Position numbers and translations under genes: made by a program. A stretch of DNA of 64,000 bases from Rhodospirillales bacterium (GTDB taxonomy: Bacteria > Pseudomonadota > Alphaproteobacteria > JAJFIK01), in NCBI GenBank assembly GCA_021775005.1, contig JAJFIK010000018.1, positions 1 to 64,000 on the forward strand, given 5' to 3'. Positions 14,217-34,408 of the stretch are shown one piece after another (position 1 is the first letter of the stretch; each line of letters starts with the position of its first letter). A model generated the notes under the pieces. The model did not search any database. It had not been told where the DNA came from and was given only the letters and a program-made list of their open reading frames with translations.

Positions 14217-14615
14217 TTATTCCGGCAGCACCGCGGTTGCCTCGATCTCTACCTTGGCGCGATCTTCCACCAGCGCCACCACTTGCACCAATGCCATTGT
14301 GGGGAAGTGCTTGCCGATGACATCGCGATAGGCAGCGCCGACTTGCCCTAACGCGCCCAAATATTCTTGTTTGTCGGTGACATACCATGTGAGCCGCACA
14401 AGGTGTTCGGGCCCCGCACCGGCTTCGGCCAGAAGCGTAACAATATTCTCAAGAGTTTGCCGCACCTGGGCGGCGAAGTCATCGCTCTCAAATTCCTGCG
14501 CGGCGTTCCAGCCGATTTGACCGCCGAGAAAAATGGAGGTGCCTTTGGCCGCAATGCCATTGGCATAACCTCGTGCACGCTTCCAATTACTGGGGTGGAG
14601 TTGCTGGTGCATCAT
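14217..14615 (-). CDS. RidA-family enamine/imine deaminase
   Basis: 132 residues, typical RidA/YjgF length. Features are GIAAKGTSIFLGGQIGWN, the trimer core FAAQVRQTLENIVTLLAEAGAG, and VRLTWYVTDKQEY, followed by VALVEDRAKVEIEATAVL. The family hydrolyses reactive enamines and imines to ketones and ammonia, but the canonical Arg of the RidA subfamily (IRTTVF) is replaced here (ALVEDRAKVEIEA), so it belongs to a divergent subgroup. Its ATG overlaps the CoA ligase stop (ATGA), and it is the last gene of the operon. The context suggests a role in removing the amino group from the enamine formed by the monooxygenase/reductase. Confidence 0.85.
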   Translation of the reverse strand: MMHQQLHPSNWKRARGYANGIAAKGTSIFLGGQIGWNAAQEFESDDFAAQVRQTLENIVTLLAEAGAGPEHLVRLTWYVTDKQEYLGALGQVGAAYRDVIGKHFPTMALVQVVALVEDRAKVEIEATAVLPE

Positions 14616-16252
14616 ACCACTCCCTTCGCGGCGTCACGCAAGACAAAGCGCTGCACTTTTCCGGTTTGAGTTTTGGGAAGGGCATCAATGAACTTGATCG
14701 ATCTTGGATACTTGTACGGCGCGATGGTGGCCTTCACGTGATCCTGGAGCTGCTTGATGCAGGCCGCATCGCCTTGGGTGCCTTTTGCCAAGACCACATG
14801 GGCCTCAACGATTTGCCCGCGTTCTGCATCCGGCGCGCCAATGACCGCGCATTCCGCCACATCCACGTGAGACAGCAGCGCTGCCTCCACTTCAGGGCCC
14901 GCAATATTGTAGCCCGATGAAATGATCATATCGTCGGCGCGAGCGGCAAAGTGGAAGTAGCCATCGGCATCCTTAAAGAATGCATCGCCGGTCAAGTTCC
15001 AACCCTCGCGGACATATTGCGTTTGGCGATCATCGCTGAGATAGCGGCAGCCGGTGGGGCCGCGCACGGCGAGCTTGCCCACTTCGCCATCGGGCACATC
15101 CTGCATATCATCGTCAACAACGCGCGCTTCATACCCCATGATGGGCCTCCCGGTTACGCCGGCGCGCGCGTCATTCAAATGATTGGACAGGAAAATGTGC
15201 AGCAGCTCCGTTGCGCCAATGCCGTCCAAAATGGGAATGCCGGTCTTCGCGGTCCAGGCGTCATAGGTAGGTGCCGGTAATGTTTCGCCAGCGGACACCG
15301 CAATGCGCAGGCTCGAAAGATTAGCCCCTTCATCTATCGCTGCCATCATGGCGCGATAGGCTGTGGGGGCGGTGAAACAAATGGTCGCCCTATAAGTCTC
15401 AATGATCTCGATCAGGTTCGCGGGCGAGGCGTGCTCAAGCAATGTAGCGGTTGCACCAAAGCGCAAGGGAAAGACGGCAAGGCCTCCGAGCCCAAAGGTG
15501 AACGCCAGCGGCGGGGAGCCCACAAAAACATCATCGGGCGTGACCCCCAACACTTCACGGGCATAGCCGTCAGCAATGATCAGCATGTCGCGGTGAAAAT
15601 GCATGGTGGCTTTGGGCTCGCCCGTGGTGCCGGAGGTAAAGCCCAGCAGTGCCACATCATCGCGGCCTGTTTGCACTGCTTCAAAGCGGACTGGCTTGCC
15701 CAGCGCCGCGCGATCCAATTCCGCGTCATGGTTGGAGGTGCCATCAAAGCCCACAACGGTCTCAAGGAAGGCGCTGGTCTTCGCAGCGGTGGCAAGTTCA
15801 TCCATCATGCGCGTATCGCAAAGGGCAAGGGTCACCTCAGCTTTGTCGATGATTTTGGAAAGCTCACCGCTGCGCAGCATGGGCATGGTGTTGACCACCA
15901 CGGCACCTGCCTTTGTCGCCGCCAACCAGCACGCCACCATGGCCGGATTATTGCCGGAGCGAATGAGCACCCGATTGCCGGGGGTGACGCCATAGTCTTC
16001 TACCAGCGCATGGGCGAGGCGGTTGGTCCAATCCGTCAGCTCTTTGTAGGTGCGCCGCCGTCCATTGCCGATCAACGCGTCATGGTCGCCAAAGCCGCTC
16101 GCCACCATCTTGTCGGTCAGCTCAACCGCTACATTCAGGAAATCGGGGTATTGAAAGGCCGCGTTATCAAGCAGCAACTCAGGCCATTGATCTGCAGGCG
16201 GCAGATTGTCCCGCGCGAAGCTGTCCACATGCCCTGTAGGTCCCAGTACCAT
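14612..16252 (-). CDS. abmG: 2-aminobenzoate-CoA ligase (benzoate-CoA ligase family)
   Basis: 546-residue ANL-superfamily ligase. It has the P-loop FTSGTTGEPKATMHFHRD (about 208-225), DGIGATELLHIF (about 330), the hinge region FHFAARADDMIISSGYNI and the C-terminal catalytic Lys in LPKTQTGKVQRF. The His-rich continuation of the P-loop (MHFHRD) is characteristic of benzoate/aminobenzoate-CoA ligases. It activates the aromatic acid to its CoA thioester with ATP, the first pathway step. The anthranilate substrate is inferred from the monooxygenase/reductase in the same operon. A 198-bp spacer with a structured repeat separates it from the preceding hydratase gene. Confidence 0.85.
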   Translation of the reverse strand: MVLGPTGHVDSFARDNLPPADQWPELLLDNAAFQYPDFLNVAVELTDKMVASGFGDHDALIGNGRRRTYKELTDWTNRLAHALVEDYGVTPGNRVLIRSGNNPAMVACWLAATKAGAVVVNTMPMLRSGELSKIIDKAEVTLALCDTRMMDELATAAKTSAFLETVVGFDGTSNHDAELDRAALGKPVRFEAVQTGRDDVALLGFTSGTTGEPKATMHFHRDMLIIADGYAREVLGVTPDDVFVGSPPLAFTFGLGGLAVFPLRFGATATLLEHASPANLIEIIETYRATICFTAPTAYRAMMAAIDEGANLSSLRIAVSAGETLPAPTYDAWTAKTGIPILDGIGATELLHIFLSNHLNDARAGVTGRPIMGYEARVVDDDMQDVPDGEVGKLAVRGPTGCRYLSDDRQTQYVREGWNLTGDAFFKDADGYFHFAARADDMIISSGYNIAGPEVEAALLSHVDVAECAVIGAPDAERGQIVEAHVVLAKGTQGDAACIKQLQDHVKATIAPYKYPRSIKFIDALPKTQTGKVQRFVLRDAAKGVV

Positions 16253-16274
16253 CTATTGCCTCCAACTCTCTTCT

Positions 16275-16428
16275 GTCATTCCGGACGTTACATGACGCGT
16301 GAAGCCCGAAAGGGTTTCATATGCGACATGTTAGATCCGGAATCTTGCGCCCCTCACCCCGGAGATTCCGGATAGCTGGGTTCGCGCGCCAAATCAAAGA
16401 TTTGGGTCGAACCGGCTTCTGGAATGAC
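16275..16428. repeat. Palindromic intergenic repeat-like element inside the anthranilate operon
   Basis: A 154-bp block bounded by inverted ends GTCATTCCGGA (16275-16285) and TCTGGAATGAC (16418-16428, one mismatch when reverse-complemented). Inside is a perfect 11-bp inverted repeat, ATCCGGAATCT (16335-16345) and AGATTCCGGAT (16363-16373), and a perfect 7-bp hairpin, CCAAATC-AAA-GATTTGG (16389-16405). The form resembles dispersed palindromic elements of alphaproteobacteria. Only one copy is in this window, so its repetitive nature is inferred. Confidence 0.6.
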
Positions 16429-16450
16429 GGGGAAGGGGAAGCGCGCATCA

Positions 16451-17263
16451 TCAGTTACCTTCAAAGGTCGGTTTTTCTTTTGCGACAAAGGCGCGATAGG
16501 CGCGCTCAAAGTCGGCGGTTTGCATGCAAATAGCCTGCGCTTGCGCTTCGGCCTCGATGGCTTGCTCAAGGCTCATGGACCACTCCGCATTCATTTGCGT
16601 TTTGGTCATCATGTGGCCAAAGCTTGGGCCCGTAGCGATGCGGCTTGCCAATTCCAAGGCCTCTGCTTCAAGCTCGCCCGCACTGACGAGCTTGTTGTAG
16701 TAGCCCCAGGCAAAGCCTTCGTCTGCCGTCATGGCGCGCCCGGTGTGTAAAAGTTCCGCCGCACGGCCCTGGCCGATAATACGCGGCAGCATAGCGCAGG
16801 CCCCCATATCGCAACCCCCAAGGCCAACGCGATTGAACAGGAATGCGGTTTTGGCCTCCGGTGTTGCAATGCGCATGTCCGACGCCATAGTGATGATGGC
16901 GCCAGCCCCCACCGCCACGCCGTCCACGGCCGCAATAATGGGTTGCGGTGCAGCCAGCATAGCCTTGACGAAATCGCCGGTCATGCGGGTGAACGCCAGC
17001 AGCGCTTTCATATCCATCTTAACCAGCGGCCCGATGATGTCATGCACATCACCGCCGGAGCTGAAATTGCCCCCGTTGGACGCAAACACCACAGCTTTGA
17101 TGTCGTCGGCATAAGCAAGAGCGCGAAACATGTCGCGCAGCTCAGCATAGCTCTCGAAGGTGAGCGGGTTTTTCCGCTCCGGGCGGTCCAGCTGCACAAC
17201 GGCGACGGCACCCTCGCTGCGAAACAGAAAGTGTTTGGGTTTGAAGTTGCGCATGTCAGTCAT
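16451..17263 (-). CDS. Enoyl-CoA hydratase/isomerase family protein of the anthranilate operon
   Basis: 270-residue crotonase. The CoA-binding loop is [15 protein letters not shown] (about 64-78) and the second oxyanion-hole segment [23 protein letters not shown] (about 113-135) with [18 protein letters not shown] following; the catalytic Glu positions of classical hydratases are altered. Crotonase-fold members in CoA-dependent aromatic pathways hydrate or hydrolytically open the dearomatised ring. Its ATG overlaps the MarR stop (ATGA). Ring cleavage is a reasonable role but is inferred. Confidence 0.85.
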
Positions 17264-17727
17264 CGTTTCATTGTCTCCGCAGTGTCGGTCAATGTTTCCA
17301 GAAGGGATATTGCTTCAGCTGTTTGGGGCTCATTTAACCCGCTCAGGCGGCGATTGATCCAGGTTTCATGAGCCTGGGCCATGGTCTCAAACGTCGCGCG
17401 CCCGAGATAAGTTAGTTCCACATGCACGGTGCGGCGATCTTTGCTGCTGACATAGCGCCCCACAAACCCGTCGTCTTCCAACCGATCCACAATGCCGGTG
17501 ACATTACCGTTGGAAACCATCAGGGCGCGGCTCAGCTCACCCATGGTCAAATCTTTCTTTGCCCGATAAAGCGCAGCCATTACATCAAAGCGCGGCAGGG
17601 TGGTGCCGAATTCGCGCCGCAACAGCTCACGCATGTCATTTTCGATCAACCGCGAGGCGCGCAACAATCGCAGCCAAAGACGCAAGCGCTGTTTGGAAGG
17701 CGCGGTGCTGGCGGCAGCGTCGCTCAT
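17260..17727 (-). CDS. MarR-family transcriptional regulator of the anthranilate operon
   Basis: 155 residues with a winged helix-turn-helix: [30 protein letters not shown] (about 75-104) followed by the wing [15 protein letters not shown]. It is embedded in the operon, with 4-bp overlaps at both ends to the SDR and hydratase genes, so regulator level is tied to pathway expression. MarR proteins of aromatic-CoA operons are usually repressors released by the aryl-CoA thioester; that ligand is an inference here. Confidence 0.9.
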
Positions 17728-18485
17728 ATTTCACCGCCGGAGATGGAGATCGCTTGCCCGGTGATTGATTTGGATTCTGCCGCGCAGAGCCAGAGTACCG
17801 TCGCGGCAACCTCTTCCGGCGCAATGATGCGCCCTTGCGGGTTGGCACCGGCCAGCGCGGCGCGCGTCTCTTCCTCTGAGCGTCCGGTTTTCTCCATTAT
17901 GTTCGCAATAGAATCAGCCAACAGCGGTGTTTCAGTGAACCCCGGACAGATCGCATTGACGGTAATGTTTTGCGTCGCGGTTTCAGTTGCCAATGCGCGG
18001 GTGAGGCCAATGACGCCGTGTTTTGCTGCGCAATAGGGCGCGGCATAAGCGTATCCCTTAAGTCCCGCGGTGGATGCCATAGTGATGATGCGCCCGCCGC
18101 TGGTTGAGCGCATGTCTTCCAGCGCCGCGCGACAGGTGAGAAAGACACCGGTGAGATTCACATCCATCATGCGCTGCCAATGGTTCAGGTCGACGCGCGC
18201 GAAGGGCGCGCTCTCTGCCGCACCTGCATTGGCAATGACGATATTCACCGGGCCGTGGGTCTTGCGCGCGCCGGCAAACATGGCGGCCACCGACGCTTCA
18301 TCGGTAACATCAGCGATGACAGCGCTGATGTTCTTCGCTTGCGCTGCAATTTCCTGTAAGGGGCCTTTGCGTCGCCCGGCGATGGTAACATTTGCGCCGA
18401 CGCCCGCGAGCGCCAAAGCGATGGCCGCGCCAACGCCGGTGCCGCCGCCCGTGACCAATGCATGTTTGTCGCTCAATTCCGCCAT
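17724..18485 (-). CDS. Short-chain dehydrogenase/reductase of the anthranilate operon
   Basis: 253 residues. NAD(P)-binding TGGGTGVGAAIALAL (about 13-27), NAG in VIANAGAAE (about 88), and the catalytic Ser-Tyr-Lys of MASTAGLKGYAYAAPYCAAKHG (Y about 155, K about 159). It would oxidise a 3-hydroxyacyl-CoA-like intermediate, or reduce a keto group, after dearomatisation. It begins 1 bp after the monooxygenase stop and is coupled to MarR by ATGA. Confidence 0.88.
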   Translation of the reverse strand: MAELSDKHALVTGGGTGVGAAIALALAGVGANVTIAGRRKGPLQEIAAQAKNISAVIADVTDEASVAAMFAGARKTHGPVNIVIANAGAAESAPFARVDLNHWQRMMDVNLTGVFLTCRAALEDMRSTSGGRIITMASTAGLKGYAYAAPYCAAKHGVIGLTRALATETATQNITVNAICPGFTETPLLADSIANIMEKTGRSEEETRAALAGANPQGRIIAPEEVAATVLWLCAAESKSITGQAISISGGEI

Positions 18486-18486
18486 G

Positions 18487-20775
18487 TCATACCCGTATCA
18501 TTTGGCTGTCATCGCGTTCCGCAAGGCGATGAAGTTGGTCGCGGCCCGGCTCATACGGTTTGGGCCAGGTGGCCAGGGTCTCCCCCAAGGCCGCCCCTGC
18601 ATGAAGCGTCCAATAGGGATTGGCCAAATGCGGTCGGGCAAGGCAGACAAGATCAGCGCGTCCCGCCATAAGGATTGAATTCACATGGTCAGGCTCGAAT
18701 ATGTTGCCCACGGCCATGGTCTTTAGGCCGGTCTCATTGCGAATGCGGTCTGAAAAGGGCGTTTGGAACATGCGGCCATAGATCGGATCGGCGCGGGTTG
18801 AAGTTTGTCCGGCGGAGACATCAATAATGTCTACCCCTGCGTCCCCCAACATTTGCGCAATGCCAACGGCGTCTTGCGGCGTGATGCCATCGCTACCGAC
18901 CCAATCATTGGCGGAGATGCGCACGGAAATGGGTTTGCCCTCGGGCCACACGGCGCGCACCGCATGAAACACTTCCAACGGAAAGCGCATGCGGTTCTCT
19001 AAGGTGCCGCCATATTCATCATCTCGCTTGTTCGTCAGCGGCGTGATGAAGGACGACATGAGGTAGCCATGGGCGTAATGAAGCTCGAGCCAGTCAAAGC
19101 CGCAACGGTTCGCCATCTCTGCAGAGGCGACAAACTGGTCGCGCACCTCAGTCATCTCAGTACGGGTCATTGCGCGCGGTGTTTGATTTTGCGGTGACCA
19201 TGGAATGGGGGAGGCGGAGATCAATTCCCAATTGCCTTCTTTGAGCGGGGCGTCCATTTTCTCCCAGCCCAATTGAGTGGACCCCTTTGGCCCGGCGTGA
19301 CCCAATTGTATGGCCATCTTGGCGTCGGTCTCTTTGTGTACAAAGTCCACGATGCGCGTCCAGGCGGCTTCATGTTCGGCCGCGTAAAGACCGGGGCAGC
19401 CCGGCGTGATGCGGCCGGTGGGGGAGACGCATGTCATTTCCGCAAATAAAAGCCCCGCGCCGCCTTTGGCTCGCTCGGCGTAGTGAACCAGGTGCCAGTC
19501 AGTGGGGCTGCCGTCGACCGCTTTGTATTGCGCCATGGGGGAGACAACGACGCGATTTTTCAGCGTTACATCGCGCAACTTAAACGGGGCGAACATGGGT
19601 GCATGAGCATCCTTTGATGTCACGCCCGCTTCAGCAAAGAACCACCTCTCTGCGCTTTCAAGCCAGTTTTTGTCCCGCAAGCGCAAGTTTTCATGGCTGA
19701 TGCGCTGGGACCGGGTCAGCAGCGAATATGTAAACTGCACCGGGTCCAGGTGAAGATAGCGCTCCACATCTTCAAACCATTCCAGCGAATTGCGCGCCGC
19801 AGATTGCAGGCGCAACACTTCCACCCGGCGTTCATCTTCATAGCGTGCAAAGGCCGCTGGCATGGTGGGCTCGCTCACAAGATAATCCGCCAGTGCGATG
19901 GCGCTTTCCATGGCAAGCTTGGTGCCGGAGCCGATAGAGAAATGCGCCGTTGCTGCCGCGTCGCCCATGAGCACAATATTTTTGTGAGACCAGCGCTCGC
20001 AAAGCACCCGCGGGAAGCTGAGCCATGCAGACCCGCGTATGTGCGCGGCGTTGCTCATAAGGGCATGACCGCCGAGGTAGTCTTTAAATAATGCTTCGCA
20101 GGTTTTGATGCTGTCTGCTTGCGACATCTCGCCAAAGCCAAAAGCGTTCCAGGTTTCTTCGCTGCATTCAACAATAAAGGTCGCGGTGTCATCGTCGAAC
20201 TGGTAGGCATGGGCCCAAACCCAGCCGTGCTTTGTGTTCTCAAAAATAAACGTAAAGGCATCATTGAATTTTTGGTTTGTGCCGAGCCAGACAAATTTGC
20301 ATTTGCGCAGATCCGTGTTGGGCTGAAACACATCCGCGTGCTCTTGGCGCACTTTTGAGTTAAGCCCGTCGCTTGCCACGATGAGATCGAAGTCAGCAAA
20401 TTCGTCGGTGGACTCAAACTCTTGCTCAAAGCGCAGCTCCACGCCGAGCTCCCGCGCGCGGGTCTGCAAAATGTTTAGGAGCTTTTTGCGTCCGATACCG
20501 CAAAAGCCATGGCCGGTGGAAACTGTGCTTGTGCCTTGATAGTGAACGGCGATGTCATCCCAATAGGCAAAATTCTCTCGGATGATTTTCCCACTTGGCA
20601 CATCATTGTTGTCAAAATTGTCCAGCGTCTCGGCTGAGAACACCACGCCCCAGCCAAAGGTGTCGTCGGGCGTATTGCGCTCGAAGACAACGATGTCGCT
20701 TTCGGGCGCGCGCAGCTTCATGGAGATGGCGAAGTAAAGACCGGCGGGGCCGCCGCCAAGACAAGCGATGCGCAT
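18487..20775 (-). CDS. abmA: Bifunctional 2-aminobenzoyl-CoA monooxygenase/reductase (salicylyl-CoA 5-hydroxylase/oxidoreductase family)
   Basis: 762 residues, matching the two-domain enzyme. Residues 1-375 are a class A flavin monooxygenase ([15 protein letters not shown] motif; GD motif in [16 protein letters not shown] near 285). Residues 385-762 are an Old Yellow Enzyme-type reductase ([40 protein letters not shown]). Characterised members hydroxylate 2-aminobenzoyl-CoA at C5 and then reduce the ring with NADH, giving a non-aromatic enamine-ketone CoA ester. ATG at 20775 directly precedes the Rossmann motif and has AAGGA upstream, so it is preferred over 20832. First gene of the operon. 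Confidence 0.9.
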
Positions 20776-20893
20776 GGGATTTGATCCTTCGCCGAGCCGA
20801 TCCGAGGTCGAAATAGACTGCGGCAGAACCAAAACTATTTCAAGCTTAAAGCATTAACCAAATTAACGGGGATTTCCCGGGGATAAAAAGGGC

Positions 20894-23674
20894 CTAGACC
20901 CGGAGGACCAGTCGCGCCATCTGTCGGCTGAGAGCCGCCATGCCTTGCCACGGATTGACGTGATTGATGTTCATGAAGTCGTCGTCGCCAAGCTCAAACC
21001 CGTCCATGGGCATTAGCTCGATGTCTGCATTGGCTCTAAGGCGCGCGAGCAATTCTTCAAAGCGGTCGCCTTGATATTCAGCTGCCAGGGCACGCGTCAT
21101 AGTTTGGTCTGCCGGATGAATGAAACAGATAACCCGATCAGCCACTTCTTTTAGGGCCGCCGCCCCCCTGAACCAATCGTCGAGCTCTTCGAATTTGAAA
21201 TCCACGTCGCCCAAATAGGTGCGCGCGATTTCATAGTCGCGGTCCTTTTCCCACTTGGGGCGCAGGCGCCTGCGCGTGCTGTCATCATTGTGCGCCCAAA
21301 GACCGCCGCTTTCCGCGTCCCAATCAAACTCAGGATCAAGCTCGCCCGTACTTTGCGGCTTGATGCGCCCGGAAAAGTGGTCCCTGCTGAGATTGAGATC
21401 ACCCTTTGGCGGCGTCACGCTGATGTGCATGGGGTCAAGCTCATAGATCACAATCGGCATGCGCATGCCGACCGATTTGCAAGTGTCGCGAACAAAGGCG
21501 CAAACATCGCTAATACCCGCGCAACTGATCGCCGGCAGCCCTACATTGAGGCACCGCACATCATAACCCATTGTTTGGGCCTCTTGTTCAAACTCCAGCG
21601 GCGCAAGGGCACGATAAACCCCCGACGAGCCGATGATCATAATCGTGGGTTTTTTCTCCGCTGCGATATAGCCTGGGAAGCGGTCAATAAATTGCAATGC
21701 GCGGTTGGCGCGACGCTGCCCAAGCTCTGGTTTTGCCGGTTTCACTAAACCGCTGACGGCGCGCAATCCCTTGTGTAAGGCTGCGCTCAGGCGCGAAAGG
21801 AGGCCGCTCTCGCTATTGTGCCTCAGTGAGGACGCATCCAGCCGTTCCACCATGTCGCGGAAGGAAAGCTGCGATAGCTCCACCACGATGTCCTGATCAA
21901 GGGGGACGGCATAGGTGCGTTCAATCTCCGCCGTGAGGCTAACAAAGGAAAGTGAATCCATCCCCGCTGCAATCAGCGATGGCGCACTTAAGATGCGATC
22001 ACGGCTCAAAGCCGGCGACACTTGAAGCACCGCACTCATCAAGCGCTCTTGCTCCTGCGTCAGGGGCTCAAGGTTTTGGCTCTCGCTTTGCTCGCTAGCG
22101 AACGAAGCCTTGATGGTTGCGGCAATGGACTTGCGATCAATTTTTCCCGCCGCGCTGATGGGAAAAGTTTCGATGCAAACCACCCGCGACGGCACCATAT
22201 AGATCGGCAATTCGGTACGAACTGCGGTGATGATTTTGTCTGTATCCGCGCTGTTGCATTCAAGCGCCGCCACAATGGAGGTGCGCGCAGGTTCATCCGG
22301 CGGCCAGGCAAGCGCAATGGCGTTCACGTTGCCCGCCGCCTCACGCAGCACGGCTTCAATGGCCCCCAGCTCCACGCGATAGCCGCGGATCTTCACTTGG
22401 TTATCCATGCGCCCGATGATGTGAATGACGCCATTGGGTTCGCGAACAACCTGGTCCCCGGTGCGATAATAAAGCCCTTCTCTATCGGGCAGTGAGACAA
22501 AACTCTTGGCGCTGCGACCTGGATCATTCAAATAGCCACTGGCCACTTGCGGCCCGCACAAAAGCAATTCGCCTGGCTCGCCGTCAGGCACCTCGGCAAG
22601 GGCTTCATCGTGCACCGTCAAAGACATATTCGGGAACGCCGTGCCGATGGGAATGGATGGCTTGGCCGTGACCGCGCTTTGATCGCCTTGCGGTAAGACA
22701 TATCGCGCGCAAACAATGGTTGCCTCGGTCGGGCCGTACCAATTCTCCACGCTGCCATTTGGCGCAGCAACCGCCCATTCCAATGCAAGAGCGGTGGGCA
22801 GCATCTCGCCACAAAACAGTGACGATCGAAGAGACGGAAATGCGCCTGCGGTCAGATCCCCCTGGCTGCGAATAAGAAACCCCATGGACGGCACGGTGAA
22901 CCAGCAGGTAATGGCATGATCGCGAATGAAATCCGCAGGCCGCGCCAGCTCATGCTGTGTCGGCACAAAGAGGTGCGCGCCGGTGCTCCAACAAACATAA
23001 ATATCATGCACCGATGGATCAAACGTCAGCCCGAACGTTTGGCTGAACCGATCATCGGGCCGCGCGCCAATCATATCTTTGGCGGCATCTACATAGGCGG
23101 TCAGATTGCTGTGGCTGATGGGCACGCCCTTGGGCTCACCGGTGCTGCCTGAGGTAAAAAGGATGTAAGCCAGCCGATGCGCATCGATTTCCGTTACAGG
23201 CAAAGCCAAGTTGGCTGCAGCAGTAAGATGAAAGTCTGCTTTACGATCAAAGCAAGGCAAGAGCGTTAGTGCCTTACCACGTTCTGTTTTCATCAGCGCT
23301 TTGATTTCTGCGCGTTGGCCAACGGTTGCGCCACATATAATGTGTTGCGCTTGTGACCTTCGAAGCAGCTCTTCGTTTCGCTTGGCCGGGTTTTCAGAAT
23401 TGATGGGACAATAGGTGTGACCGCGCAGAAGACAGGCCAAAATACCGAGATATGACGACAAGTGCCGGTCTGCAATAATGGCGGTGACCGGCGGCGTGCC
23501 ACCGGAATTCGCCGGGGGAAGTTTTTCAGCCAGGGCTTGCGCAGCACCAAGAAGCTCGCCGTAGCTCCAGGTTTCTCCATCGATAGTGAGCGCAGGGCGA
23601 TCAGGTGTCGCTACGGCGTGGCGCACAATCGCGTGGCAGACAGACCAAGTTTCCTCAGACATCATGGGCGGCAT
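20894..23674 (-). CDS. Three-domain protein: amino-acid adenylation domain - carrier protein - SGNH-hydrolase-like domain
   Basis: 926 residues. The A domain (about 1-515) has LFTSGSTGEPKGVPIS, FDPSVHDIY with the Asp that binds an alpha-amino group, WYGPTEATIV, GRMDNQVKIRGYRVELG and the catalytic Lys of AAGKIDRKS. A carrier domain follows (about 530-610) with the phosphopantetheine Ser574 in GMDSLS. After a linker, residues 670-926 look SGNH/DltD-like: IMIIGSSGVYRAL near 676, CLNVGLPAISCAG near 707, and a late NINHVNPWQG around 905. The order mirrors DltA-DltC-DltD. No condensation domain and no membrane segment. The ATGs at 23665/23662 are equally plausible starts. The gene overlaps the upstream sulfotransferase by up to 20 bp. 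Confidence 0.8.
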   Translation of the reverse strand: MPPMMSEETWSVCHAIVRHAVATPDRPALTIDGETWSYGELLGAAQALAEKLPPANSGGTPPVTAIIADRHLSSYLGILACLLRGHTYCPINSENPAKRNEELLRRSQAQHIICGATVGQRAEIKALMKTERGKALTLLPCFDRKADFHLTAAANLALPVTEIDAHRLAYILFTSGSTGEPKGVPISHSNLTAYVDAAKDMIGARPDDRFSQTFGLTFDPSVHDIYVCWSTGAHLFVPTQHELARPADFIRDHAITCWFTVPSMGFLIRSQGDLTAGAFPSLRSSLFCGEMLPTALALEWAVAAPNGSVENWYGPTEATIVCARYVLPQGDQSAVTAKPSIPIGTAFPNMSLTVHDEALAEVPDGEPGELLLCGPQVASGYLNDPGRSAKSFVSLPDREGLYYRTGDQVVREPNGVIHIIGRMDNQVKIRGYRVELGAIEAVLREAAGNVNAIALAWPPDEPARTSIVAALECNSADTDKIITAVRTELPIYMVPSRVVCIETFPISAAGKIDRKSIAATIKASFASEQSESQNLEPLTQEQERLMSAVLQVSPALSRDRILSAPSLIAAGMDSLSFVSLTAEIERTYAVPLDQDIVVELSQLSFRDMVERLDASSLRHNSESGLLSRLSAALHKGLRAVSGLVKPAKPELGQRRANRALQFIDRFPGYIAAEKKPTIMIIGSSGVYRALAPLEFEQEAQTMGYDVRCLNVGLPAISCAGISDVCAFVRDTCKSVGMRMPIVIYELDPMHISVTPPKGDLNLSRDHFSGRIKPQSTGELDPEFDWDAESGGLWAHNDDSTRRRLRPKWEKDRDYEIARTYLGDVDFKFEELDDWFRGAAALKEVADRVICFIHPADQTMTRALAAEYQGDRFEELLARLRANADIELMPMDGFELGDDDFMNINHVNPWQGMAALSRQMARLVLRV

Positions 23675-24737
23675 CGCCTTGGGGTTTGGCTTGTGGATTG
23701 TCGCCGCTCACAAGGGCAGGAGCATCCGCTTCCACCTTCACCGCGAAACTGGTTTGCACTGTGGAGTAAAACGGCCGCTTCTCACCGTTCATGAGGCGCT
23801 CAATCGGTTCAAGCAGTTGCTGCCTCATCATGCGCAAGGCTGAGCGCTTCGCCGCAACGCCAAAGTCGAGAGCGTATCCAAACCGCGCCATCAAGTCGCC
23901 CAAATAGGCTTCGGTCATTTTGATCTGGCCGCGGGAAAGCGTTTTGCGATACTTGCCGAAATTTGATGACATCAACGGTCTGGCGAGGTTTTCGCGCGCC
24001 GTGCCTTTGCGCGCAAATTTCGCTGTGTCCTGATTTTCGTGGAAGCTGAGCATAGAGTCTTCAAATGTGATGCCGAGAAATTCGCATAGCGAAACCAAAA
24101 CCCGCCGGGGGTCGCTTACCAAATCCTCATAGCGCTGGAACTTGACACGCTCCGGCCCCAAGAGAGCCAAAGTTTGAAGGCCGCCAATTTGATCCTCGCG
24201 CCAGACCGTCAAGGCATTGCGGTTGGAACCGAACTTGTTACTGAGCCATACGTTCTTCAATGCTTTGGCGGAGGCGAGATAGTCGCGAGGGTCGCGCACT
24301 TGGAAGATAAATTTCGCGTCAGGAAAGCATGAGAGAATAAACGGCATGGTCTTATGGAGATTATTCTCCTTGATAAAGATCAGTTCGGCCCCGGGCTTGG
24401 GGTCAAGGCGCGCGTGCACATAGCGATAAACCTTGCACGGGTCCGCATCGCTGGTGTCCAGCCATGTCGCCAGATTTGCGGCCACCTCTTCTGAGTGAAC
24501 GCGGGCTACTGTGGTGACCAGATGGCGCTTAATCTTTTCCCACGCAGGCGCGGCTGCCCCCAACCCCAACATGGTGTGATGGTTCTGGATAAAATCGCGC
24601 CCCAGGTGAAACGGCGGCGGCGCGCTAACCTGGCTATGAGAACCGAGAATCGCGCTCATGAGGTTTGACCCGCTTCGCTCAGAGCAAATCAGAAAAGCGA
24701 ACTTGGTGCCGCCTGTGTCTGGCATCGGATCAGTCAT
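23655..24737 (-). CDS. Sulfotransferase family protein
   Basis: 360 residues. The 5'-phosphosulfate-binding loop is FLICSERSGSNLMSAIL near the N-terminus (about 14-30) and the 3'-phosphate motif is QVRDPRDYLASAKAL (about 144-158). It would transfer sulfate from PAPS to a hydroxyl or amine acceptor in the cytosol. The stop lies inside the start region of the adenylation-carrier-SGNH gene, so the two are co-transcribed and likely act in one pathway. The acceptor is unknown. LPS, capsule, lipid or a carrier-bound intermediate are all possible. Confidence 0.85.
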   Translation of the reverse strand: MTDPMPDTGGTKFAFLICSERSGSNLMSAILGSHSQVSAPPPFHLGRDFIQNHHTMLGLGAAAPAWEKIKRHLVTTVARVHSEEVAANLATWLDTSDADPCKVYRYVHARLDPKPGAELIFIKENNLHKTMPFILSCFPDAKFIFQVRDPRDYLASAKALKNVWLSNKFGSNRNALTVWREDQIGGLQTLALLGPERVKFQRYEDLVSDPRRVLVSLCEFLGITFEDSMLSFHENQDTAKFARKGTARENLARPLMSSNFGKYRKTLSRGQIKMTEAYLGDLMARFGYALDFGVAAKRSALRMMRQQLLEPIERLMNGEKRPFYSTVQTSFAVKVEADAPALVSGDNPQAKPQGDAAHDV

Positions 24738-24886
24738 CGTCCGCTCATGGTTGAGGGGTTTCTCATTGCCGCTTAGGAACTTGGATAAATACTCGCCCGC
24801 GGTGGGTCAAGCAAGGCGCTGGGCAGGGTTAAGCGCGAGCGCTGCGAGTTCAGTTACATGGACATCCCGCAACCAATCACCCTAGA

Positions 24887-25858
24887 TTGCAGCGAACGCA
24901 AGAGCCAAAGGAACGTGCCGCTGTGGCTGAGGCCCCTATAAAAATTATTGCCATATCAGGGACCGGCCGTACCGGCAGCACTTTGTTCGCGCTTTTGCTC
25001 AGCCAGCAGGCGGGCGTGTTCAATTTGGGTCAGCTGCGTGATCTCTGGTGGGCTTATGGCGAGGCGGCTCCTTGTAGCTGCCAAAATCCGCTAACCTCCT
25101 GCCCCGTCCATAGACCGGCAATGACGGAAGTGTTTGGGCCCGACGTCTCGCAAGGGTTAAAGCAAATGGACGAAGGCACCCGCGCGTTCATCCAGGATGC
25201 CAAGTCGTTGCGCCATTGGGACAGCGCTGAAACCCGGCACAGCTTGCGCGACCGGCACCGTTACTTGGTCGATACCCTTGGGAAAACATTGACGGCCTTT
25301 GTTCGCACAACCGGGTGTCATACGTTTATTGACGCTTCTAAGGCCCCCGAAATGGCATTGGCGTTCAGTCTCGTTGAAGGGGTCGACCTCAAGGTTCTTA
25401 ATCTGGTGCGGGACCCTCGCGCCGTGGTGTCCAGTTGGCACAAGAAAACCAAACAATTTCGCACTGCGATCAGTTTCGCCGCCCAATGGGCATTGCGCCA
25501 AAGGCAGCTCGAACAATGGGCACCGGCCCTCAGCGCAGATTTTCTGCGCGTCCGCTATGAAGATTTTGCTGCCCGCCCGCAAGATACCCTGAATGCCATA
25601 TCTGCCTGGGCAGGGATGCCTTTGGCGGACGATTTGTTTGTCTCACCCGACGAGGTGTCGCTAAGTTGGGGCAGGCAGCACCTTTATCCGCGCGCCAATG
25701 AGCGTTTGCTTGCTGAGCGCCAAACCCAAGTTATCATACAGCCTTCGGATGGTTGGCGCGGCTCGGGTAATCTGCCGTTGCATCTGATCGCACTTGCGTT
25801 CAGTGCCCCGCAAGGATGGCGCTACGTTTTTGATAAGCGCCAGGGGCCGGACGCCTAA
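24887..25858 (+). CDS. Second sulfotransferase family protein, divergent from the first
   Basis: 323 residues. The P-loop is ISGTGRTGSTLFALLLSQ (about 24-41), the 3'-phosphate motif LVRDPRAVVSSWHKK (about 176-190), and a C-terminal RYEDFAARP segment follows. A Cys-rich stretch (CSCQNPLTSCPVH, about 64-76) sits after the P-loop and occurs in a subgroup of bacterial sulfotransferases. GTG at 24923 is an alternative start closer to the fold. The 149-bp divergent region with the first sulfotransferase suggests shared control. It overlaps the stop of the VWA gene by 4 bp. Confidence 0.83.
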   Translation: MQRTQEPKERAAVAEAPIKIIAISGTGRTGSTLFALLLSQQAGVFNLGQLRDLWWAYGEAAPCSCQNPLTSCPVHRPAMTEVFGPDVSQGLKQMDEGTRAFIQDAKSLRHWDSAETRHSLRDRHRYLVDTLGKTLTAFVRTTGCHTFIDASKAPEMALAFSLVEGVDLKVLNLVRDPRAVVSSWHKKTKQFRTAISFAAQWALRQRQLEQWAPALSADFLRVRYEDFAARPQDTLNAISAWAGMPLADDLFVSPDEVSLSWGRQHLYPRANERLLAERQTQVIIQPSDGWRGSGNLPLHLIALAFSAPQGWRYVFDKRQGPDA

Positions 25859-28399: not shown

Positions 28400-29668
28400 A
28401 TGTCAGGTGCCGTTGCGACATATTTTGAGGCGCTCCGCGCGTCGGAGACCGCTGTTCCTCGTCGCCAAGTGTATCACGGAGATCGCGCGCACCTGCGTCC
28501 GGTCCCCTTTACTACGAAACCGAATGGCAAGGGCGCGAGTGTAAAGTCCGTGGCGCTTGTCGCTGGCACGCGCCCTGAAATCATAAAACTCGCGCCAGTT
28601 TACCATGCCCTGAAATCAGGTCCTCTCGACGTGCGATTTGTCACCACTGGCCAGCACGGGGAAATGGCCCACCAGGCTTTGGCGACCTTTGAGATCACGC
28701 CCGAACTTGCCCTTGATTGCGTCAATGGCGCGGTCGACCTCAGCGATATCCAAGCGCGCATGATGACGGCCTTGAGCGCCGCTTTCACGGAAAACCGTCC
28801 TGATCTTATTGTCGTGCAAGGTGATACGTCATCGGCCTTTGTCGGCGCGATGGTGGGCTTTAACTTGCAGATTCCTGTAGCGCATGTGGAAGCGGGGCTT
28901 TCCAGCGCGTGCAAATATGATCCCTTCCCGGAGGAGATGTTGCGCACATTGGTGCGGGAAATTGCGGCACTCCACTTCGCGCCCACTCCTGGCGCATTTG
29001 CACATTTGGAGCGCAAAAACCTTCAAGAAGCAGTGCTGCATCTAGTTGGCAACACGGTTGTTGATGCGGCCCAGTGTGTGGCAGCAACGGAAACCGTGCC
29101 GCCGCAAGTCATTCGTGACTTGGAGGAAGGTGAGCGGATCGTATTGATCACCACCCACCGGCGGGAAGCCTGGGGCGGCGGAATTGAAAACATCTGCGAT
29201 GCGGTGGCGCAATTGGCGCGCGTGCATCCTGACGTCATGTTTGTATGGCCGGTTCATCTCAATCCACGCGTATCTGAAACGGTAACGGCAAAGATGTCCG
29301 GCCAACGCAATGTGCGCCTGACTGAACCTCTTGGCTATGCAGACTTCATCGGCGTGTTGTCGCGCGCCACATTGGCGCTGACTGACTCCGGCGGTGTCCA
29401 GGAAGAAGCGCCCAGCTTTGGCGTTCCCGTGCTGGTGATGCGCAATGTGACAGAGCGCCCTGAAGCCGTTGAAGCTGGCCTCGCGCGCCTTGTAGGTACA
29501 GACACAGCGGCAATTTTTGAACAAGCAAGCGAGCTTCTGTCTGATGAGGTGACCCGCCTCGCCATGACCAAGGCAGGCAATCCCTTTGGCGATGGCCTCT
29601 CTGGTCCGCGAATCGCGCGCCTGGTGGAAGAATATATGAACGCTTCAGTCAGCGTGGCGGCGAAATAA
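28400..29668 (+). CDS. wecB: UDP-N-acetylglucosamine 2-epimerase (non-hydrolysing)
   Basis: 422 residues. From about 50 the protein is a GT-B-fold epimerase: LVAGTRPEIIKLAPV, VVQGDTSSAFVGA, VAHVEAGLSS, TTHRREAWGGG, TDSGGVQEEAPSFGVPVLVMR and a terminal NPFGDG. It interconverts UDP-GlcNAc and UDP-ManNAc. The first 48 residues are not family sequence; the frame is open from 28400, but the GTG at SVALVAG or a codon near 28535 could be the true start. It lies 24 bp upstream of nfrB-like and nfrA-like genes, so its UDP-ManNAc is probably used by NfrB. Confidence 0.9.
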   Translation: MSGAVATYFEALRASETAVPRRQVYHGDRAHLRPVPFTTKPNGKGASVKSVALVAGTRPEIIKLAPVYHALKSGPLDVRFVTTGQHGEMAHQALATFEITPELALDCVNGAVDLSDIQARMMTALSAAFTENRPDLIVVQGDTSSAFVGAMVGFNLQIPVAHVEAGLSSACKYDPFPEEMLRTLVREIAALHFAPTPGAFAHLERKNLQEAVLHLVGNTVVDAAQCVAATETVPPQVIRDLEEGERIVLITTHRREAWGGGIENICDAVAQLARVHPDVMFVWPVHLNPRVSETVTAKMSGQRNVRLTEPLGYADFIGVLSRATLALTDSGGVQEEAPSFGVPVLVMRNVTERPEAVEAGLARLVGTDTAAIFEQASELLSDEVTRLAMTKAGNPFGDGLSGPRIARLVEEYMNASVSVAAK

Positions 29669-29692
29669 CAACAAAAAAGGAGCGGCACCCCC

Positions 29693-31966
29693 GTGCTCCC
29701 TCTAAATTGGCAAGCTTTAGAGTACATGGCGATCGACGCCGCTGCGATCGGCTGGTTCGGTTTGCAAGCGGCCATTGCCAGCATCGCTTTTATCATTCTC
29801 CTCAGCTCAATCGATGATCTCTTCGTAGACGGGACCTATTGGTTCCTGCGGCTCAAACGTGCCGGGCGCGGCAATGTTTACGGCTTGCCTCGCAATGCCG
29901 ACGATCTCACTGCAATTGAACAAAAACCTTTGGCCGTCATGGTGCCCGCGTGGGAGGAATCTGCTGTCATCGCGCGGATGATCGCCAACACCATCGCCAA
30001 TATCAAATACGACAACTACCATATCTTCGTCGGCGTTTATCCCAATGACTCAGATACCCGCGACGAGGTTGATCGTATGGGGCGCATGTATCCCAATGTG
30101 CATCGCGTTGATGTGGGGCATCCGGGACCCACCAGTAAAGCGGACTGTCTTAATTGGTTGATCCAGGGGATTTTTGGATTTGAGCAACACCAAGGGCATG
30201 ACTTTGCTGGCGTCGTACTTCATGACGCTGAAGACGTGATCCACCCCTACAGTTTTGCTGTGGTGAATTGGGTCTTGCCTTACCTCGATCTCATTCAACT
30301 GCCGGTCTATTCCATGCCACGTCGCCCCGGGCAAATGGTCGCCAGCCACTATATGGACGAGTTTGCCGAATGGCATACCAAAGACATGGTAGTGCGCGAG
30401 GCGCTGACAGGCATAGTCCCCAGCGCGGGGGTTGCCACGACGTTTTCGCGGCTCGCTCTAGAAGAACTTTCCCGCGACAACGAAGATCTGCCGTTTAATA
30501 CCAATAGCTTGACCGAGGACTATGACGTTGCCCAGCGCATTCAGGAACTTGGCTTGCGGGGCGGCTTTGTACGTCACGAGCTGGATGTGCCGTATGAGGC
30601 GGAAGATGGCTATACGGATTGGAAAACAGAGGTTGTTTCAACCCGCGAATTTTTCCCCGACAAATTGAAATACTCGATACGGCAAAAATCGCGCTGGATG
30701 CTGGGGATTTCATTTGTGGGGTGGGAGCAGATTGGCTGGCGCGGCTCCCTTGGTAATCGTTATTTCCTCTACCGAGATCGCAAGGGCATTGTAACCGCGC
30801 CGCTCAGTATGCTCGCCTATTTCGTTGTTCTAAATGTGGTGATGTATATGGCGTGGTATCTGCTCGCGCCGGTGGATTGGCGCTTGCCGACTTTGGTGGA
30901 AGCGGGCTCGCCGGCTTGGTACTTGGTCATGATCAACTTGGTATTTCTCGCCTCGCGGATTTTCCATCGCGCCTGGTTTGTGGGCAAATTGCATGGCCCC
31001 GTCCATGCCTTGATCTCACCCGCCCGCATCGTCGTTTCAAACTTCATTTCGTTCTTCGCCAGCATGCGCGCTGGGCGGCAATATATTGTCTCGCGCCTCA
31101 CAGGCAAAAAACTCACCTGGGATAAGACCAGCCATAACTATCCCTCAGCGTCGGAAATTCTTGACGGGCAAGCGCGTCTGGGGGAAGTGCTGGCGCAAAT
31201 GGGTGCGGTGCGCCCCTCTGACGTGGATGCCGCCTTGGCTGAACAAGGCAACGTCTATCGCCCCTTGGGACTTCTGATGTTGGATCAGAATCTGGTCAGT
31301 GACGAAGACCTGGCCAAGGGCTTTGCTGAACTTGCGGGCCTCGCATTTGAAAGCTTCAGCGTTCACGACGTGCCCGACGATCTGATTGAGATGATGCCGC
31401 AGCGTATCGCCGCTGAGTATGGCGCTTTCCCCATTCGCATCGACGGCAAGTGTCTCGTGATCGGCTTGAGAGAGCCGCTGACCAAACCACAGCGGGCCGT
31501 TCTTGAAGATGAAGTTCACACCGACCTCAATGTCACCTATGTGCTTTCCCCCCGAAGTGACATCAGCTTTGCCATCCGCTTTGCCTATGACGGTCATCTG
31601 ATGGACGCCACCAAGCGCGATCTTAACCTGCTTGAGAAGGTTGGGGTGGTCAGCGCGAGCGATGTTACGCGCATTTGGCGCGGCATTCGGCGCAGCTATA
31701 CCCCGTTCGCAGATCTGGCTGTACGACTTGGTTATGTCACTCATACAGAGCTAACCCAGATGCTAGGTGACTTCTGGGTGCGCGCTGATCTGCCGTTCAT
31801 CGGAGATTACCTGCTGGAGCTTGGTCTTCTCACCGATGAAAAGGTTAACGAAATCTTACGCATCCAAGACGCAGAACTTGCCGACGCGTTAACCGTCGCT
31901 GCGCACTTGGGCCTTATAAGCGAAAGTGATAGGGCCCAATTGGAAGACGAAAGGGAGCGGTCATAA
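29693..31966 (+). CDS. nfrB: NfrB-like membrane glycosyltransferase with C-terminal MshEN (c-di-GMP-binding) region
   Basis: 757 residues starting GTG with AAGGAG upstream. There are membrane helices near 15-40 and several near 370-430. The processive GT2 domain spans about 80-340, with MVPAWEESAVI, ADCLNW, the DxD-like HDAEDVI, SLTEDYDVAQ and the QxxRW motif (QKSRWML). From about 490 come MshEN repeats: RLGEVLAQMGAVRPSDVDA then PLGLLMLDQNLVSDEDLA, and a degenerate later copy. E. coli NfrB has the same architecture and is a c-di-GMP-activated polysaccharide synthase. The inner-membrane location and use of UDP-ManNAc from WecB are inferred from that system. Confidence 0.88.
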   Translation: MLPLNWQALEYMAIDAAAIGWFGLQAAIASIAFIILLSSIDDLFVDGTYWFLRLKRAGRGNVYGLPRNADDLTAIEQKPLAVMVPAWEESAVIARMIANTIANIKYDNYHIFVGVYPNDSDTRDEVDRMGRMYPNVHRVDVGHPGPTSKADCLNWLIQGIFGFEQHQGHDFAGVVLHDAEDVIHPYSFAVVNWVLPYLDLIQLPVYSMPRRPGQMVASHYMDEFAEWHTKDMVVREALTGIVPSAGVATTFSRLALEELSRDNEDLPFNTNSLTEDYDVAQRIQELGLRGGFVRHELDVPYEAEDGYTDWKTEVVSTREFFPDKLKYSIRQKSRWMLGISFVGWEQIGWRGSLGNRYFLYRDRKGIVTAPLSMLAYFVVLNVVMYMAWYLLAPVDWRLPTLVEAGSPAWYLVMINLVFLASRIFHRAWFVGKLHGPVHALISPARIVVSNFISFFASMRAGRQYIVSRLTGKKLTWDKTSHNYPSASEILDGQARLGEVLAQMGAVRPSDVDAALAEQGNVYRPLGLLMLDQNLVSDEDLAKGFAELAGLAFESFSVHDVPDDLIEMMPQRIAAEYGAFPIRIDGKCLVIGLREPLTKPQRAVLEDEVHTDLNVTYVLSPRSDISFAIRFAYDGHLMDATKRDLNLLEKVGVVSASDVTRIWRGIRRSYTPFADLAVRLGYVTHTELTQMLGDFWVRADLPFIGDYLLELGLLTDEKVNEILRIQDAELADALTVAAHLGLISESDRAQLEDERERS

Positions 31967-32011
31967 ACCGCACAAGTGCGCGCGTTTAGGTCAAAACCGC
32001 TTGGTTAACAC

Positions 32012-34408
32012 GTGCTGCGATGGCTTCGCCGCCGGGGGGGTGGCGCAACATCAAACCTATTAAGGAATTTTTGCCTGGCCATTTTGGTGGGAACCCTTCT
32101 GCTTGCGCCAACACCAATGGCCGTCGCGGCGGGAGAGACACAATCTCTCATCTCAAACGCGCGGTCATGGCTTGAGTCCTTTACAGGGTCCGAGAACGGG
32201 GATTGGTACCTTGAACGCGACTTGGCTGGCTTCCGCGCTTTTCCCCTGCTCAATCGCGCCCTGCGCCGCATGGCCGATGGTGACTATGATGGCGCGCGCA
32301 CAGCGGTTGATCGGGCCCTGCAGATCGCGCCCCAAAACGCTGCGGCGTGGACCATCAGCGGCGATCTCGCGTATAGGCGCGGCAATGTGGCCACCGCATG
32401 GCACCAGCTCAATCACGCCTTGGCGCTCAATCCTGATCTGGCGCAGGCGCATCTCTATCGCGCCTACGTTCGTATCGAATATGGTGACTTTGATGGCGCG
32501 CGGTCGGACTTTAATGCGGCCCTCGCGATCGGAGCCCTGACCGATGATCAAATCGAACTTGCCCAAAATGGGTTGGGGGCAGCGGCGTATCAAGTAGAGC
32601 TTATGAACGCGGCCGCCAGCTCCAATAGTTCACTTCCCATTACCAATGCCCTGCTGCAAGCTGATCCCAATCGGCGCCCAAACCTGCCAGCACCGGGCCC
32701 GGTTTCGATTCCCCGTCGCAACGAGACGCCTTCGCAGGCATACGTTTCTGCATATGTCGAACCGCCGACCCCCACGGCGGGCGATCGGGCCTATTCCTAC
32801 GCGTCCAATGGCCAATGTGCCGCCGCTGATCCATTATTCATGCAAGCTTATCGCGATACTGGTGACGGGGCGCTGCTCATAGCGCGCGCTGATTGTTTCA
32901 ACAGCGCGGGCGATATGATCGCCGCCCATGCCGCTTTTGAGGCCGCGCGTCGCGTCGCAAGCGGGCTTTCGGTTGTGCAAGAGGTTTATGTGCTGCAGTC
33001 CCTTGGCTATTCCTATGAAAACACGGGAGACCATGACCGCGCAGCTGAGGCGTGGGGCGCTGCGCTTGCTTTGGACGAAACCCCCACCCATCGCCTCGCT
33101 CTGGCGCGAAATTTGATGGCGGCCGGCGATAGTGCCCAAGCCCGGCAAACGATTGCCTCCATAAACCCGGACACCCTTTCACCAGGCGAGCAGGCGGCGT
33201 TTTATGATTTACGTGGGGGCGTGCGCGCAGAAACGAATCCAGTGGGCGCGATTCCGGATTTCGAAGCGGCAGTACGCGCGGAAGACAGCGCCGACCGGCG
33301 CTATCGCCTTGCCACAGCGCTGCAGGCGGCTGAGCGCCATGACGAGGCGCTGGTGCAGTTGGAGCAGGCTTATGACCTTGACCCCTCAAGCGCTGACATT
33401 GCGCTCTCCCTTGCCTACGCTTATGGCAATGTGGATCGCCCGGCAGCGTCCATCCCCTATTTTGTTGAAGGGCTGCGCCGCGATGACGCGCGCTTCTTTG
33501 AAGCCCGCGAGGATCTCGCCTATGCCCAGCTTCGCACCCGGCGCTATGGCGATGCCGCCCGGAGTTTCCGGCGTGTGGTGGATAATGAACAGAGATATGA
33601 CCAAGATACCCGCGCTGAGCGGCGCGAGCTCGATCAACGGATGTACCGTGTACGGCGTGAAGTGAGCGAGCTGGAACGCACCGGCTATGCCTATGGCTCA
33701 GCGGTCTATCGCAGCACCGACATTAACGCCAGCGGCCTTACTGGCGCCGATCGCGATCAATCCCAATGGAGTGCGCTGGTTGGATGGTATCCGCTGCGGG
33801 GCCGCGTCTCTGCGGGGCGGAACTTGTCGATTTTCGCACGAGCCTACCAATCGTTTGAGCCCGGCGGGTTCAGCTTGCGTGATGAAACATTGCAGGCAGG
33901 GGTCGGCTTACGCCTGCAACCGTTCGATAGCTTTGGGCTCACGCTTTCCGGCGAACGTTTGATTGCCGTTGGCGACGAGGCGCGCAATGCCTGGCTGTTC
34001 TCGGCCGCGCACGGCTGGGGCATTGGCGGTGATTGGCGCCCCACAGACCGCCGCTGGACCGTAGCCTCCAGTTATCTTGAGGCCGCCTATATTCCAGACG
34101 ATCCCCAAGTCCTATCGGGCTTTGGAGAATTGTTCCTGGGCCAAGCCTTTGCCATTGCGCCGCGCCTTGCGGTGATCCCCCACGTAGTTGCCTCGGTGCG
34201 CTACAGCGAAGATGAGTTCGTGACAAACTTCCTGAGCGAATTGGGTGTTGGTGCCTCTTTGCGATACTGGTTCGACGACACCAGATACCAAGCCCCGCGC
34301 GGATCGATTGATTTTCAACTGCAATATCGCTGGTTTGCCTATGATGACACTGAAATCCCCCTCACTGATGATGGCGCTGTTGTGGGCCGCGTGACCATCA
34401 GCCGGTAG
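32012..34408 (+). CDS. nfrA: NfrA-like outer-membrane TPR/beta-barrel protein
   Basis: 798 residues. The signal peptide is LAILVGTLLLAPTPMAVAA (cleavage near 41). Residues about 75-560 are tetratricopeptide repeats (for example ALQIAPQNAAAWTISGDLAY, ALALNPDLAQAHLYRAYVR and AYDLDPSSADIALSLAYAY). The last 250 residues (from about 570, YRSTDINASGL) resemble the NfrA C-terminal outer-membrane barrel: alternating aromatic strands ending with FQLQYRWFAY and VGRVTISR. In E. coli NfrA exports the NfrB-made glycan and is the receptor component for phage N4. It is 45 bp downstream of nfrB. Its stop overlaps the convergent monooxygenase gene by 11 bp. Confidence 0.85.
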   Translation: MLRWLRRRGGGATSNLLRNFCLAILVGTLLLAPTPMAVAAGETQSLISNARSWLESFTGSENGDWYLERDLAGFRAFPLLNRALRRMADGDYDGARTAVDRALQIAPQNAAAWTISGDLAYRRGNVATAWHQLNHALALNPDLAQAHLYRAYVRIEYGDFDGARSDFNAALAIGALTDDQIELAQNGLGAAAYQVELMNAAASSNSSLPITNALLQADPNRRPNLPAPGPVSIPRRNETPSQAYVSAYVEPPTPTAGDRAYSYASNGQCAAADPLFMQAYRDTGDGALLIARADCFNSAGDMIAAHAAFEAARRVASGLSVVQEVYVLQSLGYSYENTGDHDRAAEAWGAALALDETPTHRLALARNLMAAGDSAQARQTIASINPDTLSPGEQAAFYDLRGGVRAETNPVGAIPDFEAAVRAEDSADRRYRLATALQAAERHDEALVQLEQAYDLDPSSADIALSLAYAYGNVDRPAASIPYFVEGLRRDDARFFEAREDLAYAQLRTRRYGDAARSFRRVVDNEQRYDQDTRAERRELDQRMYRVRREVSELERTGYAYGSAVYRSTDINASGLTGADRDQSQWSALVGWYPLRGRVSAGRNLSIFARAYQSFEPGGFSLRDETLQAGVGLRLQPFDSFGLTLSGERLIAVGDEARNAWLFSAAHGWGIGGDWRPTDRRWTVASSYLEAAYIPDDPQVLSGFGELFLGQAFAIAPRLAVIPHVVASVRYSEDEFVTNFLSELGVGASLRYWFDDTRYQAPRGSIDFQLQYRWFAYDDTEIPLTDDGAVVGRVTISR

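Follow-up and report, generated by a model that had tools for sequence, protein, structure and literature searches.

The closest described systems are the Dlt pathway, by which teichoic acids are D-alanylated, and AlmEFG, by which Vibrio cholerae glycylates lipid A. AlmE has been solved with Gly-AMP (4OXI), and its Leu248 and Cys316 limit the pocket to glycine, while DltA has Thr where AlmE has Leu and so leaves room for the methyl group of D-Ala (PMC11253843). Misactivation of D-Ala by AlmE is also possible (PMC12930378). DltD, the SGNH-fold member of the Dlt system, is membrane-anchored and faces outward (PMC3783018). A 64,000-nucleotide stretch from a Rhodospirillales bacterium (contig JAJFIK010000018.1, positions 1 to 64,000; hereafter the window) encodes a 926-residue protein that joins an adenylation domain, a carrier (thiolation) domain and an SGNH-fold domain (A-T-SGNH) and is accompanied by two sulfotransferases, STa and STb. 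The combination is real, conserved and undescribed in the open-licence literature that was searched, where no paper on an aminoacyl-carrier-SGNH protein with sulfotransferases was found, in keeping with the initial annotation, made from the sequence alone, which knew of no system with this exact set.

The fused enzyme, its sulfotransferases and their relatives

The A-T-SGNH fusion is found in 14 further genomes (15 with the window), from Rhodobacteraceae, Comamonadaceae and one member of the Verrucomicrobiales, and its adenylation, carrier and SGNH parts are all present in 15 of 15, the adenylation domain of one (L055) being interrupted by an assembly gap. A tblastn search of plasmids returned two full-length homologues that carry the annotation non-ribosomal peptide synthetase (NRPS), one on CP104103 (Phaeobacter sp. 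G2) and the other on NZ_CP109794 (Leisingera thetidis). Six more genomes emerged when 84,980 species genomes were scanned, three from Rhodobacteraceae, two from Comamonadaceae and one from Verrucomicrobiales, and a profile search of the 397 genomes in the family of a Pseudophaeobacter metagenome-assembled genome (MAG) found the fusion in seven, six of them new. Profile searches also gave 1 of 301 genomes in the family Comamonadaceae (the seed alone) and one clear match each among 335 genomes of the Verrucomicrobiales class and 385 of the window's own class, weak matches (E about 1e-4, 43-71 positions covered) not being counted as members. By these searches the fusion is rare outside the genomes named. 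A single-sequence search with the C-terminal domain against 116 relatives and the 385 class members returned the window itself or chance matches and nothing else, and no phage record carried a homologue. On one 110-kb contig (NVUP01000014.1, loci L037 and L038) the module occurs twice in apparently identical form, near both ends and about 93 kb apart, which would reflect either a duplication or a circular replicon with redundant ends.

STa orthologues (33-44% identity over about 300 residues) stand at the locus in 14 of the 15 genomes, within about 2.5 kb of the core gene in 13 of them, including one in which STa is split by a contig break, and at 10.7 kb in the other (G514). The genome without STa is the Verrucomicrobiales MAG, whose contig starts 186 bases upstream of the A-T-SGNH gene; none was found across that genome. 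Ten of the 15 genomes have STb. In five Rhodobacteraceae an in-frame fusion places it at the N-terminus of the enzyme, giving an ST-A-T-SGNH protein of 1212-1266 residues, and two Comamonadaceae have STa and STb joined in one protein (669-702 residues) whose gene overlaps that of A-T-SGNH. The distance matrices of both sulfotransferases follow that of the core enzyme (r 0.965 for STa and 0.934 for STb, Mantel p 2e-4), to which shared species history could contribute. In PLSDB only three records align with 80% or more of STa, two of them being the plasmids that carry A-T-SGNH. Since architecture and neighbours recur in 14 further genomes, chance as their origin is excluded.

In the window the A-T-SGNH and STb genes overlap by 20 bases and STa diverges 149 bases upstream of STb (Table 1), the layout that had been noticed initially; both sulfotransferases fall in PF13469. 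Their binding motifs for 3'-phosphoadenosine 5'-phosphosulfate (PAPS) are invariant in the orthologue alignments (GxGRxGxT and RDPRAV in STa, CSERSGSNL and RDPRD in STb). The window's own genome holds about 12 PF13469 genes in 2.85 Mb, so two of them beside the A-T-SGNH gene are unlikely by chance alone. It also encodes one adenosine 5'-phosphosulfate (APS) kinase and one AcpS-type phosphopantetheinyl transferase, which make PAPS supply and carrier activation possible.

Pfam matches the 926-residue protein to AMP-binding over residues 18-382 (E 8e-64) and to PP-binding (PF00550) over residues 566-602 (22.1 bits against a cut-off of 20.8). In NCBIfam the adenylation domain passes the curated cut-off for amino-acid adenylation (TIGR01733, 333 against 317 bits), whereas its score for the DltA equivalog (TIGR01734, 257.9 bits) is far under the cut-off of 559.85. 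D219 (in FDPSVHDIY) and K511 (in AAGKIDRKS) correspond to GrsA positions 235 and 517 in a hand alignment whose columns were checked in an alignment of 14 family sequences, and the carrier Ser574 is invariant in all 14. No condensation domain is given by Pfam in the protein, and a hydropathy scan of it shows no transmembrane stretch. Pfam, NCBIfam and AlphaFold/Foldseek thus agree with the initial annotation in placing an adenylation domain, a carrier with Ser574 and a C-terminal SGNH domain in one protein that is not an NRPS. Of the DltA-type order proposed there, the amino-acid type of the adenylation domain holds, but its assignment to DltA does not, given the AlmE-like pocket and the low equivalog score.

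Table 1. Features of the module in the window
Feature	Position	Strand	Evidence
A-T-SGNH fusion protein, module core, 926 residues	20894..23674	-	open reading frame list; Pfam/NCBIfam; homologues
Adenylation domain, residues ~12-524	22103..23641	-	Pfam, NCBIfam, alignment; nearest pocket AlmE 4OXI
Carrier (thiolation) domain, residues ~536-612, phosphopantetheine Ser574 (codon 21953-21955)	21839..22069	-	PF00550 over cut-off; D-S invariant in 14 sequences
SGNH-fold domain, residues 654-926	20897..21715	-	AlphaFold, Foldseek, residue invariance
Sulfotransferase STb, 360 residues, overlaps start of fusion gene	23655..24737	-	PF13469, E 1.8e-25
Sulfotransferase STa, 323 residues, divergent	24887..25858	+	PF13469, E 6e-16
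149-base gap between divergent STb and STa genes, probable shared promoter region (inferred)	24738..24886	.	gene layout

The adenylation pocket and the C-terminal domain

The pocket of the window enzyme consists of D219, P220, H223, F259, L286, C288, W312, I320, V321 and K511. In the alignment the family pocket is nearly invariant (D L H F L C W I A/S K), and the window copy differs from it in having Pro at position 236 and Val at 331. Among solved adenylation domains, 4OXI comes nearest in the pocket region. Because the family has Phe at the position read as the equivalent of the AlmE Leu and the DltA Thr, and because its pocket is nearest to that of AlmE, the activated amino acid is predicted to be small and is probably glycine. 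A plasmid of Solidesulfovibrio (L082, 5965-7834) carries an adenylation domain with a near-identical pocket, D-L-H-F-L-C-L-I-A-K, followed by a separate carrier; neither an SGNH nor a sulfotransferase gene was found beside it.

Pfam assigns no family, PF04914 (DltD) included, to residues 654-926, and a sequence profile of this domain has no significant match in the PDB. AlphaFold models were built from an alignment headed by the window protein (predicted local distance difference test, pLDDT, 86.3; predicted template modelling score, pTM, 0.88) and from one headed by the Verrucomicrobiales homologue (pLDDT 84.5, pTM 0.86). SGNH proteins fill the top PDB matches of both in Foldseek. With the first model DltD ranks first (6pfx, E 3.5e-5, TM 0.50), and with the second GDSL esterases come first and DltD fourth; esterases, PatB, OatA and E. 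coli thioesterase I are also among the matches. In the models GSSG 682-685 (block I) lies at the β1-α1 turn, N-x-G 710-712 (block II) at the end of β2 and H905 (block V) before the last helix, as expected for SGNH, and GSSG, H905 and G911 are invariant in the 14 aligned sequences. From the ranks in the two models, the SGNH fold is secure as a structural prediction, whereas DltD is not clearly the nearest relative. The initial annotation had staked its model on sulfotransferases adjoining homologues of the fusion and on an SGNH fold here, and both are found; the likeness to DltD that it had added stands in so far as DltD is among the best PDB matches, but is limited by those ranks and by the lack of DltD's membrane anchor.

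A proposed mechanism and its alternatives

The evidence is consistent with a self-contained cytosolic module in which a glycyl-carrier transferase and PAPS sulfotransferases couple aminoacylation with sulfation of a surface glycan or lipid precursor, a proposal to which about an even chance may be given. The adenylation domain would activate a small amino acid, predicted to be glycine, as its adenylate and attach it to the phosphopantetheine arm of the fused carrier. The SGNH domain would take over the aminoacyl group, probably as an acyl-Ser684 enzyme, and hand it on to a hydroxyl group in the cytosol, carried most likely by a glycan or by a lipid-linked precursor of a surface polymer, and the dedicated sulfotransferases STa and STb would sulfate the same product. 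The proposal is built on the observed domain make-up, fold, conserved pocket, constant STa link and fusions of STb and STa, from which we infer the substrate, the direction of transfer, the acceptor and the order of sulfation.

Several observations weigh against this mechanism. The Pro at position 236 weakens the glycine prediction for the window copy itself. The SGNH catalytic machinery, read from the 14 aligned sequences, appears non-canonical. Three residues before H905, where the Asp of DxxH is usual, 12 sequences have Asn and two have Asp, and E-x-D/E stands where block III would read GxND; the customary Asp and Asn are thus missing. Of the Ser-Asp-His set proposed initially as a check, the Ser and His of blocks I and V are invariant, but most sequences have Asn in place of the Asp, so the alignment does not show a canonical triad. 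That the domain would act as a transferase, not a hydrolase, is itself a prediction from the model. At loci L054 and L056-L059 the module lies, as read by eye, among genes unlike those of polysaccharide synthesis.

In a different order of events STb, and perhaps STa, would sulfonate the aminoacyl group while it is bound to the carrier (giving N-sulfoglycyl if glycine is the substrate), and the SGNH domain would then transfer or release the unit. Sulfonation of a carrier-bound peptide by SulN with PAPS is established (PMC11298585). The in-frame fusion of STb to the carrier-bearing enzyme in five genomes suits such a sequence of steps. The solved structures nearest to STb and STa are those of CurM (4gbm) and 4gox (profile E 1e-23 for STb and 9.5e-11 for STa), while for a control sulfotransferase from the window's own genome the match is tyrosylprotein sulfotransferase, with repeat matches crowding its list; few bacterial members of this family are in the PDB, which makes evidence from nearest structures weak. 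Since the CurM and 4gox sulfotransferases act on carrier-bound acyl groups, and given the SulN precedent, this is a serious rival. However, glycine has no hydroxyl, so its sulfonation would need the amine, and two sulfotransferases would not be needed. On balance on-carrier sulfation is unlikely, and the same low likelihood attaches to its specific form, in which the ST-A-T-SGNH protein would make a sulfonated aminoacyl thioester such as N-sulfoglycyl on its own carrier and its SGNH domain would move the unit to a surface glycan or lipid. If sulfonation on the carrier followed by SGNH transfer were true, it would amount to a chemical modification new to the literature and to a novel class of machinery for aminoacyl sulfation.

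The SGNH domain might instead act as a thioesterase and release a small, sulfated amino-acid product, the whole being a minimal natural-product synthetase and not a polymer transferase. The presence of E. coli thioesterase I and esterases among its structural matches, and the module standing alone, away from polysaccharide genes, at L054 and L056-L059, speak for this, but there is neither a condensation domain nor a second module, release of a just-activated amino acid would be futile unless it were modified on the carrier, and the roseobacter plasmid copies have a polysaccharide context; such a role seems quite improbable. That the sulfotransferases and A-T-SGNH merely share polysaccharide islands and have independent targets, as further unrelated sulfotransferase genes at several loci (L031, L033, L055) might suggest, is strongly disfavoured and very unlikely, because every locus that could be assessed in Alpha- and Betaproteobacteria has the same STa orthologue, five genomes carry STb as part of the enzyme, the three genes stay together outside such islands, and two of the three PLSDB records matching STa are the enzyme's own plasmids.

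The amino-acid esters made by Dlt and Alm shift surface charge one way and sulfate esters the other. The joining to sulfotransferases, which is genetic and, in five genomes, also physical, suggests a combined bacterial modification that nobody has sought, and the consistent inheritance and the fusions point to an unreported way of attaching an amino acid as well as sulfate to a surface sugar, a lipid or a small molecule.

Genomic setting and comparison with known systems

Capsule or polysaccharide genes surround the roseobacter copies, two of which are on polysaccharide/rhamnose plasmids, amid genes for glycosyltransferase, UDP-galactopyranose mutase, an ABC exporter and rhamnose. In Comamonadaceae, one locus (L034) has upstream of the module cysD and cysNC, with an APS kinase domain, as a possible source of PAPS, and beyond the module two loci (L033, 12225-20833; L034, 10617-19224) hold two more sulfotransferase-like genes, a GT41-type protein and a very large repeat protein. 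The Verrucomicrobiales copy is followed (L035, 3161-6952) by a 1263-residue open reading frame with an arylsulfatase-like start, as read by eye.

In the window, 2.5 kb from STa, wecB and genes for an NfrB-like glycosyltransferase controlled by cyclic di-GMP and an NfrA-type outer-membrane protein stand in a row (28400-34408, + strand). They are probably an N-acetylmannosamine exopolysaccharide cluster, for which the N4 receptor glycan of E. coli offers a comparison (PMC8669472). Considered as the acceptor pathway, this cluster was not seen beside the module at other loci. Farther along the + strand are a three-gene ferredoxin oxidoreductase operon (36234-40929; Fer4_20/Pyr_redox, POR_N/POR and TPP_enzyme_C) and a metallo-beta-lactamase-fold protein whose gene overlaps that of a SulP-type sulfate permease (45751-48353), possibly for sulfur or sulfate supply. 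On the - strand (14612-20832) a gene for an acyl-CoA ligase and a protein in which FAD-binding and old-yellow-enzyme parts are fused, resembling aminobenzoyl-CoA monooxygenase/reductase, look like aromatic catabolism.

Sulfotransferases are joined with carrier and hydrolase domains in the CurM/OLS sulfotransferase-thioesterase pairs, which also provide the nearest solved structures to STa and STb. These are polyketide-type enzymes without an amino-acid adenylation domain, in which the thioesterase is an alpha/beta hydrolase and not SGNH. The SulN/SulM sulfazecin pathway likewise combines a PAPS sulfotransferase, an A-T enzyme and a domain for release, but theirs is a multi-module NRPS with condensation domains, and its Cys-type thioesterase makes a beta-lactam.

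With Dlt the module shares the A-C-D order of adenylation, carrier and SGNH domains, and with DltA in particular Leu236, Leu299 and Cys301. It differs in an adenylation domain below the DltA equivalog cut-off, an SGNH domain without membrane anchor, the presence of sulfotransferases and its Gram-negative hosts; Pfam finds no DltD match (PF04914) in the 926-residue protein or its own genome, and neither a Pfam scan of neighbouring genes nor the annotation of loci L031 and L032 showed an MBOAT (DltB), the whole genome not having been searched. Its pocket is closest to that of AlmE, D-L-H-L-F-C-L-I-A in AlmE against D-L-H-F-L-C-W-I-A, and it shares with AlmEFG the plan of holding an ATP-activated amino acid on a carrier before transfer; Cys301 is common to AlmE and the family, as is Leu236, which is Pro in the window copy. 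Unlike AlmEFG, the module has carrier and transferase fused to the adenylation domain and sulfotransferases attached, and its transferase position is taken by an SGNH fold and not by an AlmG-type LPLAT, none of which was found by Pfam in the neighbouring genes scanned. Because it fails defining features of both systems, the module, which works like Dlt and Alm aminoacylation, is a member of neither.

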